Source of the DNA: Bacteroidia bacterium
Lineage (GTDB): Bacteria > Bacteroidota > Bacteroidia > Flavobacteriales_D > Cryomorphaceae
NCBI GenBank assembly: GCA_030427905.1
Contig: JAUICL010000002.1
Span: forward strand, 558,001-622,000
Length of the DNA stretch: 64,000 bases
Direction of reading: 5' to 3'
Shown piece after piece: positions 23,844 to 57,091 of the stretch. A model generated the notes under the pieces. That model saw only the letters and a list, made by a program, of their open reading frames with translations, ran no database searches and had not been told where the DNA came from. The position numbers and the translations under genes were made by a program. The number at the start of each line of letters is the position of its first letter. The first letter of the stretch is position 1.

Positions 23844-24608
23844 GTGATTAAGCTCTCGGCGGTAATCATCACATTCAACGAAGAAAAGAACATCGAACGG
23901 TGCATTCAGTCCTTGCTGCCTGTGGCCGATGAAGTGCTCGTGGTTGACAGCTTTTCATCAGATACTACCCGAGAGAAAGCCGCTAACATCGGGGCACGCG
24001 TATTAGAGCACGCTTTTGATGGCCATATCCAACAGAAAAATTGGGCAGCCAGCCAGGCCAAATTCGATTTCGTTCTTTCTCTCGATGCCGACGAAGCACT
24101 AACCGATGAATTGAGAGATTCGATTCTAAAAGTCAAAGCCAATTGGGTAGGAGAAGGATACCGGGTAAAAAGGCTGACCAGCTATTGCGGCCAGTGGATT
24201 AAGCACTGTGGCTGGTATCCAGATATGAAGCTTCGCTTATTCGACAGAAGACTGGGCGCATGGGGGGGAACGAATCCGCATGATAAGTACGAACTCAAGA
24301 GTGGAAATGCCGGCGCTATTCTCAAAGGCGATTTACTTCACTATTCATTCTACTCCATACGCCAGCACATAGATACGGTCAACAGCTTTTCATCCATCAA
24401 AGCTCAAGTAGATTTTGAGCGAAACAAGAAGCCTTCTTATCTAAAAATGATTTTCGGTCCGGTGATCCGTTTTCTGAGAGATTACGTCATAAAACTTGGG
24501 TTTCTAGATGGATTCTACGGATTTGTGATCTGTATCAACAACGCCCACTCTGTCTTTCTCAAACAAGTGAAACTCGCTCAGCTCCACAAAGACCGAAAGG
24601 CACAGTAG
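23844..24608 (+). CDS. Family 2 glycosyltransferase (WaaE/KdtX-like)
   Basis: 254 residues with a GT-A fold. N-terminal AVIITFNEEKNIERC and DEVLVVDSFSSD bind the nucleotide sugar, and LSLDADEAL is the DxD-type metal site (about 78-86). Resembles the lipopolysaccharide-core beta-1,4-glucosyltransferases, with a basic C-terminal amphipathic region that could sit on the membrane. Start is GTG, 2 bp after the SDR stop, so the two are probably cotranscribed. Role in cell-envelope glycan synthesis is inferred. Confidence 0.88.
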   Translation: MIKLSAVIITFNEEKNIERCIQSLLPVADEVLVVDSFSSDTTREKAANIGARVLEHAFDGHIQQKNWAASQAKFDFVLSLDADEALTDELRDSILKVKANWVGEGYRVKRLTSYCGQWIKHCGWYPDMKLRLFDRRLGAWGGTNPHDKYELKSGNAGAILKGDLLHYSFYSIRQHIDTVNSFSSIKAQVDFERNKKPSYLKMIFGPVIRFLRDYVIKLGFLDGFYGFVICINNAHSVFLKQVKLAQLHKDRKAQ

Positions 24609-24640: not shown

Positions 24641-25501
24641 GTGAAAGCTGGAGACGTCATTTTTTACAATCTCAAAGATTTTAAAGTAGCTCAGTCGGGA
24701 ATTGAACGAGCGACACGCTATGCCATTCTCTCATTGCCTTATACGGTTAATCGGATGGCGATCGGAAAATCAAACTCCCGATTGAGAAACATCATAAAAG
24801 GTAAGTTCGCTGAATTTCTCTTGGAGCAGTATGCAAAAGAGCAAGGGTTGGGAATGGATTTTACGGCAGGTGAAACACCCTTTTGGGAGCGCGATAGATT
24901 CGATTTTGCATGGAATGGAATGGTTTGGGATTTGAAGAACAATTTCACCCGAAAGCCAGGTTTGCTCGATGCAGAAGACTATATCAAACTACCAGCTTTG
25001 ATCCCGAACCGCTTCGATGGCGATCAGTGGTCATGCCGGGATGATTTTCCAGATGAATACAATGGAAAGGGTTATGTTTTCACTTTTATGTCGATGAACG
25101 AACAGGACTCAGGTAAGTCGTTTTTTGACCTGGTATTGAAAAGGGGGCATCTAGATTTCATCGAAAGCTTGATCGAATCTAAATCTGATGAAGATGAGCA
25201 AAAGGCGCTAATGGTAGAAAGGGAGTTTTGGAAGGAATTTGATCAGCTGGGGCCTTGGAGTGTTACTTTAAACTACGTCCCTTCCTTGATCATTTGCGGG
25301 GTGGCTACTAACGACACATATTCTTTTTTCGCCGATATAGATGGGTACGACCATCTAGGCTATGCACTTTATACTGGTCGTTGGTACTTGAGAGATGGAA
25401 ACCGATTGAATTTTAGAAATGGGCAGCTATTTACGCGTATCAAGAATGCCGCCTGTCCGATGGAAGCTCTCCCTTCTTTTAATTCGGTTTTTGGAAAATA
25501 A
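24641..25501 (+). CDS. Predicted PD-(D/E)XK restriction endonuclease of unrecognised family
   Basis: 286 residues, GTG start 32 bp after the glycosyltransferase gene. I do not recognise the family. Features seen: helix GKFAEFLLEQYA with Glu58, then RFDFAWNGMVWDLKNN, giving Asp88-x8-Asp97-x-Lys99, the spacing of a PD-(D/E)XK core with its preceding helix. The last 23 bp overlap the 3' end of a DNA methyltransferase on the other strand, so a type II restriction-modification partner is the best explanation. No signal peptide or membrane segment. A different nuclease role is possible. Confidence 0.6.
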   Translation: MKAGDVIFYNLKDFKVAQSGIERATRYAILSLPYTVNRMAIGKSNSRLRNIIKGKFAEFLLEQYAKEQGLGMDFTAGETPFWERDRFDFAWNGMVWDLKNNFTRKPGLLDAEDYIKLPALIPNRFDGDQWSCRDDFPDEYNGKGYVFTFMSMNEQDSGKSFFDLVLKRGHLDFIESLIESKSDEDEQKALMVEREFWKEFDQLGPWSVTLNYVPSLIICGVATNDTYSFFADIDGYDHLGYALYTGRWYLRDGNRLNFRNGQLFTRIKNAACPMEALPSFNSVFGK

Positions 25502-26900
25502 GGCAGTACTGGTGAAAGGTATTGCTCACAAAAGTGTTTCCATAGCCATAAGGAGCTATTGAGATATCGTCTTGTAGCCAGAATACTTCAGGGAGCAGAT
25601 GCATCTTTTCTTGAAGAATGGCCCCCAAATCCCAAGCAAAGGGGTAGTTTTTTCCTTTCTTCTTGATGTTTTTTACAACAACCACCATAATTCCACCAGG
25701 CACGAGCATATCGATAAGCTCGAAATAGAGCTTGGTCAGCTTACGGATAAAATCGTGGTAGTCGGCCACGTTGCCCAAGTCCTTATCATCATCGGAGTAG
25801 TTGGTGAGTAGTCCTTTCTTGATGCGTTTAGCTTGGTTTTCGGCCCCCTTCATATTTAGCATATCCCAATAAGGTGGCGAAGTGATCAGTAGATGTTGCT
25901 TCGGAAAACCCAATTCTTTGGCTCTAAAGGCATCGGCGTGAATAATATCGGCTTCTACATCTTGGTCGCGCCCGGCATTCACTTCTTGAAAAATATACGA
26001 CAACACTCGGTCTCGGGCAATGTCGGCAAAGAACGAGCTCAACTCGGTTCCGTAGCCATTGCGACCAAACTTGACAGCAGAAATCTGGGTCGACCCTGTT
26101 CCGCTCATCGGGTCGAATACATTTTCTCCTTTTTGGCTAAAAGTCTGAACAAACATCTCGGCCAGGTCTTCTGGATATTTGGCTGGATGCTGAACTTCTT
26201 TCTTATTTCTTCGCTGGGGCTTGAGAATAAACCAAGAGGGAATCTCTGAATCCGCATGCACTCTCAGTTTGGGCTGGCTATTTCGTTGGAAAAAATCTCG
26301 GTGAACCATTCGGTGTTCTCCGCTACGCTCATCTTTTCGAAAGTAAAGACAGTAGAAATGGCCTTTAGCTGGATGAAAATGATCCGATTCGACCGGGACA
26401 TCATCGCCTTCCAAACAAGCTATCTTTTCATCCTTTAACGTGTACTGCATGCCAATGGTATTGGCCAAGTCCCAAGCTACGGGGAAGTACGAACCGTCTA
26501 TATAAAGATTGGGCATTGCTACCATCAAAAACCGACGGTGTACCATTAAAGAAAATAGTTCAGAGACCGTGTTTAAGGTTTTTGTTTTCAGCTCATTCCA
26601 TTCTTCAAAACTCAAAGACTCGACAGCACTTCGGAGATCGATCAGAGCAAATTGAATCTGTTCAGTCGCATCGCTGAGATCATTAATAACTTCAAATCCC
26701 AGCTCCTTCGCTTCACGTGTAGCAATATCCAGGTCAGGACCTTGGTAAAAAACCTGATAAGACGTGGCTTCAAGCGTCGTAAAAAAGCGAAAGTTTGATC
26801 GAATCCAGTCTGTAGGGTCAGTGTACTTAAACCATGACTTTTGAAAAGGAAGCCATTCCTTTGACGTTATGCGATTGAATCGATTTTTACCTCCGCTCAT
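25479..26900 (-). CDS. DNA amino-methyltransferase (SPPY class), probable R-M modification enzyme
   Basis: 473 residues. AdoMet site: motif X HPAKYPEDL (238-246 from this start) then motif I FDPMSGTGST (262-271); catalytic motif IV TSPPYW (340-345), the tetrad favoured by N4-cytosine enzymes although N6-adenine is not excluded. Order X-I-IV. The N-terminal half (about 90-195) resembles the C-terminal half (about 380-473), including an AWDL block in each, so the protein looks internally duplicated. ATG 26900 is chosen over a TTG at 26927: a perfect TATTTTTG box ends 6 bp upstream. Confidence 0.85.
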   Translation of the reverse strand: MSGGKNRFNRITSKEWLPFQKSWFKYTDPTDWIRSNFRFFTTLEATSYQVFYQGPDLDIATREAKELGFEVINDLSDATEQIQFALIDLRSAVESLSFEEWNELKTKTLNTVSELFSLMVHRRFLMVAMPNLYIDGSYFPVAWDLANTIGMQYTLKDEKIACLEGDDVPVESDHFHPAKGHFYCLYFRKDERSGEHRMVHRDFFQRNSQPKLRVHADSEIPSWFILKPQRRNKKEVQHPAKYPEDLAEMFVQTFSQKGENVFDPMSGTGSTQISAVKFGRNGYGTELSSFFADIARDRVLSYIFQEVNAGRDQDVEADIIHADAFRAKELGFPKQHLLITSPPYWDMLNMKGAENQAKRIKKGLLTNYSDDDKDLGNVADYHDFIRKLTKLYFELIDMLVPGGIMVVVVKNIKKKGKNYPFAWDLGAILQEKMHLLPEVFWLQDDISIAPYGYGNTFVSNTFHQYCLIFQKPN

Positions 26901-56863: not shown

Positions 56864-57091
56864 TCACACCAGCGCGGTGTCCTGACCCACTTCTACATCA
56901 TAACCCCAATACGCCATCCACTCCATGATCATGGGCACCATATCGTCGGTGGCTGGAAACCGCATTACAAAGAGACCTTCTCCGATCTCAACTCGGGGAC
57001 GGTCGCCTTTTAAAAGTCTCTCTTTTAAGAGTTGTCTCGCACGCGCTACATTGGTCAGGGTAGGCTCCTGGTTAATGATTATCGCCTTCAT
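56864..57091 (-). CDS. Small hypothetical protein
   Basis: 75 residues with a regular ATG (57091), charged and without signal peptide (KAIIINQEPTLTNVARARQLL). No family recognised. Supported by good codon use and by the tight convergence with the neighbouring gene. Confidence 0.6.
   Translation of the reverse strand: MKAIIINQEPTLTNVARARQLLKERLLKGDRPRVEIGEGLFVMRFPATDDMVPMIMEWMAYWGYDVEVGQDTALV

Follow-up and report, generated by a model that had tools for sequence, protein, structure and literature searches.

A tail-to-tail nuclease and methyltransferase pair of a Bacteroidia genome, probably a Type II-like restriction-modification system whose endonuclease belongs to an uncatalogued family

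Does an unrecognised protein that faces an SPPY methyltransferase tail-to-tail in a Bacteroidia genome act with it as a restriction-modification (R-M) system? The locus lies in the window, i.e. the whole stretch of 64,000 nucleotides that was analysed, which belongs to a 3.8-Mb assembly estimated to be 99.77% complete. Both ORFs, as well as the overlap between their 3' ends, were found as the original prediction had placed them (Table 1). The arrangement is not a chance one, since homologues of both genes are again found next to each other in records with titles of Bacteroidota groups, Calditrichota, KSB1 and Neomarinimicrobiota. In 12 relatives the distance between the two 3' ends ranges from an overlap of 32 bp (-32) to a gap of 66 bp (+66).

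Table 1. Position of the predicted features of the pair in the window
Feature	Coordinates	Strand	Remarks
Putative restriction endonuclease ORF	24641..25501	+	286 aa, GTG start; PD-(D/E)XK core E58, D88, D97, K99
DNA amino-methyltransferase, probably N4-cytosine	25479..26900	-	473 aa if started at the ATG (26900), 482 aa if at the TTG (26927)
Overlap of nuclease and methyltransferase 3' ends	25479..25501		23 bp, tail-to-tail
Degenerate copy, N-terminal part of the methyltransferase	26328..26795	-	Approximately residues 45-200, numbered as in the 482-aa form; hhalign and model
Catalytic copy of the methyltransferase	25482..26222	-	Residues 236-482; FDPMSGTG and TSPPYWDMLNMKGAE

The methyltransferase is likely to start at the ATG and not at the TTG, since M-x-N-x-F-N is the exact beginning of 11 of the 28 aligned methyltransferase rows and, in the window protein, KNRFN is found four residues past this ATG. 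The GTG start of the nuclease is the same in the aligned protein of locus L007. Upstream of the nuclease, a glycosyltransferase gene (GT, PF00535) ends at nt 24608, thus leaving the 32 bp that had been noted between the two genes. The suggestion that nuclease expression is tied to the glycosyltransferase operon holds locally, the order S9-SDR-GT-nuclease being common to genomes G000, G396 and G395, and does not extend to the other loci, which differ in their flanks. A promoter of its own, proposed for the methyltransferase, was not borne out by a scan for promoters of the sigma-70 type only, in which 5 sites were predicted, shuffled sequence giving 4.0 on average. Elsewhere in the window, GC content goes down to 0.384 and 0.345 between nt 57001 and 59000, all the remaining 1-kb bins being in the range 0.392-0.494.

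In the PD-(D/E)XK superfamily the catalytic D...(D/E)xK residues sit on adjacent strands, after a helix carrying an acidic residue. Glu58, Asp88, Asp97 and Lys99, originally claimed as such a core, were found at these positions and are invariant in 14 nuclease homologues (31-44% identity to the window protein), as is the block D128-Q129-W130 in the same alignment. In the AlphaFold model (pLDDT 86.6, pTM 0.88), E58 falls within a helix (residues 44-68), D88 just ahead of a strand (89-91), and D97 and K99 inside a further strand (94-103), so that, judging from sequence and predicted model, both residues and secondary structure elements appear arranged as in the superfamily. When the model was compared with known structures by VIA-align, the best score was obtained with the Hjc resolvase (Z 7.7, rmsd 3.2 over 115 residues), with SPARDA (7.0), Eco15I (6.4) and PvuII (6.0) among the other top rows, all Z values being under 8; for comparison, the best Z of 44 models lacking a clear match was typically 7 to 8. 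Foldseek ranked EcoRV first (E 0.035), with no match at E 0.001 or better. Taken one by one these fold scores are modest; residue pattern, order of the elements and identity of the top rows agree, and this agreement is suggestive of a PD-(D/E)XK-like fold. The structural check that accompanied the original prediction did not refute it, the top VIA-align rows being nucleases, although the outcome is suggestive and not strong alone.

No profile of Pfam, NCBIfam, PADLOC or PHROGs matched the window nuclease. The 14 members of the family, searched against Pfam, PADLOC and NCBIfam, matched no endonuclease family either, stray hits being confined to single members; the strongest one, RTasYodC of PADLOC (E 1.4e-5), covers residues 178-235 of the L010 protein, outside the catalytic core. 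The family is therefore as unrecognised as first stated, with no credible match in Pfam, NCBIfam and PADLOC for the 14 members and in PHROGs for the window protein only, and it would add to the catalogue an endonuclease family which the profiles of all four collections miss. Two candidate identities were discarded as chance matches: an ankyrin-repeat protein, suggested by a PDB sequence search with the nuclease (26 chains, best E 0.0072, residues 152-187 only), and RGS18, the only PDB match of the nuclease profile (E 0.23). Scans of genome contigs and viral contigs, and tblastn of plasmids and phages, retrieved no nuclease relatives. Weak single-sequence matches in G345 and G111 were dropped as the profile did not repeat them, and so was a second place in G395, interrupted by stops and absent from the profile search. 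Word searches of the open PMC full text listed no published account of the pair.

The partner gene is more readily assigned, since the methyltransferase matches N6_N4_Mtase (PF01555) with an E-value of 1.2e-20 and 74.8 bits, against a gathering score of 26.7. Its best PDB sequence matches include 2zie (E 1.3e-19) and the DNA cytosine-N4 methyltransferase 8s9m (E 3.4e-7). An SPPY motif IV is the mark of N4-cytosine methyltransferases; here TSPPY occupies residues 349-353 (482-aa reading) and TSPPYW is invariant in the 28 methyltransferase rows. Based on this motif and on the nearest relatives, the product is probably N4-methylcytosine (m4C).

A second feature of the methyltransferase concerns the make-up of its chain. 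When residues 14-235 were aligned with residues 325-482 by hhalign, a probability of 98.8 (E 5.9e-16) was obtained, against probabilities of 0.1 and 0.2 when either part was aligned with the middle part (residues 236-324), and in the predicted model a similar strand-helix pattern occurs twice. Both signatures, FDPMSGTG and TSPPY, are missing from the first copy. Two copies thus appear to be joined in tandem within one chain, a degenerate one first and an active one after it, the former possibly amounting, as far as the model tells, to a whole Rossmann domain. That the N-terminal copy represents a circular-permutation intermediate was considered and dropped, the model suggesting that a Rossmann-type copy is present twice with its elements in unchanged order. 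A comparable architecture is known in RsmC, a 16S rRNA methyltransferase with two Rossmann-type domains in a single chain, the N-terminal one being a degenerate copy; RsmC is the top Foldseek hit of the methyltransferase model (2zwv, 3dmf and 2zul being among the top hits). RsmC differs from the window protein in having an RNA substrate and no nuclease partner. Scanning of viral contigs did not reveal methyltransferase relatives.

If the two proteins work together, their genes should be found in the same genomes. The methyltransferase alone was used to fetch 28 loci, whose records bear as titles Bacteroidota groups, Calditrichota, KSB1, Neomarinimicrobiota or simply 'bacterium', and the whole genomes were then searched for the nuclease. 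A homologue was present in 23 of the 28: adjacent and tail-to-tail in 12, at 1.5 kb in one (L018, where the interval is taken up by an IS200-like transposase and by a gene with weak similarity to DUF6252), on another contig in nine, and in one as a 96-aa remnant directly after the methyltransferase (L027). The remaining five genomes contained no nuclease homologue; as MAGs make up most of the 28 records, absences are to be taken as soft. By comparison, the background rate of the nuclease was 1/395 genomes in a phylum sample, 3/120 in an order sample and 4/375 in a class sample, with genomes partly shared among the three samples. Linkage and co-occurrence are thus those expected of a Type II system (12/28 adjacent and 23/28 co-occurring vs 1/395), and the eventuality that the genes are never together in relatives, which would have spoken against the original prediction, is not what the loci show. 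In 23 of 26 nuclease rows E58, D88, D97 and K99 are all kept, and these 23 rows all come from genomes with the methyltransferase, that of G539 being truncated where its contig stops. The three remaining rows are the L027 remnant beside its methyltransferase, a dead second copy in L072 and the nuclease of G395.

Related genomes offer a natural test of R-M addiction, as they include intact pairs, decayed or absent nucleases beside a methyltransferase, and a disabled nuclease without methyltransferase. Searches with the nuclease retrieved six genomes, four with the adjacent pair (G000, G396, G751 and G569, of which G396 corresponds to L007, and G751 and G569 to L021 and L033) and two devoid of the methyltransferase (G395 and G731). 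G395, 99% complete, has a generic methyltransferase match only (E 6.5e-7) and none of the family. Its locus (S9 peptidase-SDR-GT-nuclease-MFS) maintains the window-like order minus the methyltransferase, and its nuclease has lost three catalytic residues (E58I, D97K, K99I) while keeping an open frame of 284 aa (L062:3088-3942); the disabled protein may have been taken over for another use, e.g., as a DNA-binding protein. Neither gene has a homologue between GT and MFS in G397, G398 and G401. In G731 (88% complete, found by the nuclease), a stop codon interrupts the nuclease, no methyltransferase match was obtained, and a different ORF occupies the place expected for it. A further inactive nuclease is the second copy of G531 (L072:5750-6559), catalytically dead, in a genome where the first copy is intact and paired.

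Altogether, the nuclease is intact in 23 of 24 genomes having the methyltransferase and a detectable nuclease, and in neither of the two genomes without methyltransferase (Fisher p about 0.009, with phylogeny ignored and only two methyltransferase-free genomes). The opposite condition, a methyltransferase without intact nuclease, occurs in 6/28 genomes (five with none and one with the remnant). It can be followed in five Neomarinimicrobiota loci, where the methyltransferase precedes the same gene (91-96% identical; a sigma-70 factor in the L029 copy): the methyltransferase is present in 5/5, while the nuclease is intact in L029, L031 and L032, reduced to a remnant in L027 and absent from L028. 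A nuclease broken where the methyltransferase is missing, along with tolerance of the reverse loss, is the asymmetry that restriction-modification predicts, and a nuclease not tolerated without its methyltransferase is what a Type II system would show, small as the sample is (0/2 vs 23/24 intact). Considering the catalytic set, the fold model, the adjacency, the co-occurrence and the broken nucleases together, the restriction-modification role originally proposed is well supported, and we regard it as very likely that the pair is a Type II-like R-M system whose nuclease represents an uncatalogued endonuclease family, cleavage and a shared target being the presumed part of this reading.

Among the observations that count against it, besides the five of 28 genomes with a methyltransferase and no nuclease and the moderate fold scores, is the separation of the two genes in 9 of 23 genomes, which is unusual for Type II. 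In these nine genomes the nuclease lies on another contig with all four catalytic residues kept, and no family methyltransferase was found in the nuclease neighbourhoods that were fetched. In six of them (G517, G521, G525, G527, G530 and G535) the ORF lists show each gene flanked on both sides by further ORFs. Contig ends are close in two further genomes, at 388 bp from the nuclease in G528 and near both genes in G524; the least certain case is L019, with the methyltransferase at 236 bp and the nuclease at 157 bp from contig ends. When linked and separated states were mapped by parsimony for 22 pairs, the nuclease tree required 5 changes and the methyltransferase tree 4, with a linked root state, while shuffled labels gave means of 6.8 and 6.7, respectively (minimum 4). 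Deep nodes of the trees are weakly supported, and the genes of the pair would have separated about four or five times. Distances in the two trees correlate (r 0.69 for all 22 pairs, 0.69 for the 14 linked and 0.91 for the 8 separated), and none of 5000 permutations reached any of these values, although shared host ancestry accounts for part of the correlation. The two trees disagree in places, e.g., at L018 and in the L019-L020-L023 group.

Repeated separation is the least ordinary feature of the family, because, according to the excerpts of Ershova et al. (2012, PMC3488263) that deal with such cases, all known functional separated R-M systems are Type I and the Type II candidates put forward there need proof. 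The systems described in those excerpts resemble ours in that the R and M genes lie at a distance from each other while orthologous systems elsewhere are linked; here, nine separated genomes belong to one uncatalogued family with the catalytic residues kept, and they turn the working of unlinked Type II systems into a directly testable question.

Persistence of both genes when apart would also be explained by a pair devoted to methylation-directed repair or strand discrimination, in which the nuclease nicks DNA according to its methylation state and serves genome maintenance. MutH with Dam, and Vsr with Dcm, are the models for such pairs. Besides the nine of 23 genomes that retain both genes at a distance (4 or 5 parsimony changes), housekeeping flanks (AIR carboxylase, aldehyde dehydrogenase, ARMT1-like, sigma-70 factor, DNA ligase) and the single conserved location of the five Neomarinimicrobiota loci would fit this function. 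A spread as patchy as one in 395 genomes is instead unlike maintenance, and an enzyme that only nicks need not die with the loss of the methyltransferase, yet both genomes in this condition have a broken nuclease; a repair pair is thus unlikely. We hold as rather more improbable that the methyltransferase is an orphan regulator, next to which the nuclease happens to lie while serving a different function. Methyltransferases without nuclease do occur, in 5/28 genomes plus the one with the remnant, and short Bacteroidota relatives lacked the nuclease in 12/12 neighbourhoods; against this, a nuclease homologue adjoins the methyltransferase in the window and occurs in 23/28 relatives (one as a remnant) vs 1/395 in the background, the trees co-vary, and the nuclease is broken in both methyltransferase-free genomes. 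Finally, a nuclease acting in its hosts as a DNA-binding regulator and no longer as an enzyme, as perhaps in G395, would fit the open ORFs with lost catalytic residues of G395 and of the second copy of G531, but is hardly credible given that catalytic residues are kept in 23/26 rows, window included.

As a Type II-like system, the pair would operate as follows. The methyltransferase would mark one short sequence of the host DNA, probably as m4C, and the PD-(D/E)XK nuclease, presumably metal-dependent, would recognise the identical sequence and cut it where unmarked, e.g., in incoming phage or plasmid DNA. The degenerate methyltransferase copy might contribute to recognition or serve as a built-in dimer partner. 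PvuII is a Type II restriction-modification system with an m4C methyltransferase, and with systems of this kind the pair shares separate genes for nuclease and SPPY-type methyltransferase, a PD-(D/E)XK core, a patchy distribution, and a nuclease that is not kept intact without the methyltransferase. It differs from them in the uncatalogued nuclease, the apparent tandem methyltransferase and the repeatedly separated genes.

No conserved third gene emerged from 15 neighbours in loci of the full-length family and from 5 proteins encoded at loci of short relatives, which are mostly unrelated housekeeping proteins, with AIR carboxylase, aldehyde dehydrogenase, an ARMT1-like protein, a sigma-70 factor and DNA ligase among the flanks. 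DUF983 recurs in L012 and L016, which are related loci. In L021 (3-1523, 506 aa) and L033 (4463-6001, 512 aa), an ORF overlaps the start of the methyltransferase; the two proteins are 47% identical to each other, have no Pfam match, and possibly represent an extra third component in this branch.

More distant methyltransferase relatives were found in other settings. On the Kozakia plasmids (L090:5953-7392 and L091:5953-7392) a full-length relative of about 30% identity is encoded; the stretch around it contains no nuclease homologue, and its flanks are annotated as an M48 peptidase and a class A beta-lactamase. On plasmid pSVX82-3 of Haloferax lucentense (L092:4863-9878), a short methyltransferase, a UvrD/PDDEXK_1 helicase and a 462-aa nuclease-like protein are encoded in series. 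The methyltransferase (294 aa) is related to the active half of the window protein, with 43% identity over residues 231-481, and the nuclease profile is matched by the N part of the 462-aa protein (E 1.4e-12), where D, D and K are conserved and Q takes the place of E58. This locus resembles the window pair in having a methyltransferase relative two genes from a nuclease-like protein, and differs in lacking the degenerate N-terminal copy, in the UvrD/PD-(D/E)XK helicase between the two and in the Q at E58; the three-gene cluster is a possible archaeal multi-gene form of defence. We tentatively entertain, as a doubtful whole, that R and M genes of the family separate repeatedly and still work, that the degenerate twin provides target recognition or a dimer interface, and that the short-methyltransferase branch joined a UvrD-type helicase in haloarchaea to give a multi-gene defence form with the same nuclease.

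The H. lucentense methylome, in the excerpts of PMC11001535 that concern this plasmid, lists SVXHx_5097 as a solitary methyltransferase on pSVX82-3, and reports cytosine methylation at cTAG, credited to another enzyme, and at CcTTG, assigned to no single enzyme. It is possible that SVXHx_5097 is the short methyltransferase of L092 and the maker of CcTTG. As a target of the window enzyme CcTTG was rejected, since it is not ascribed to a single enzyme in the same excerpts and since the window enzyme carries an additional domain.

In Bacteroidota, 27/395 genomes contain short methyltransferase relatives at E 1e-20, the full-length match being that of the window's genome only, and none of the 12 neighbourhoods fetched around short relatives (12/12) contained a nuclease homologue. 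In eight Bacteroidota loci (L094-L099, L104 and L105) the short relatives (286-313 aa) adjoin a gene for a protein of 388-400 aa; the neighbour in L094 (392 aa), the sole one tested, proved to be the exonuclease VII large subunit.
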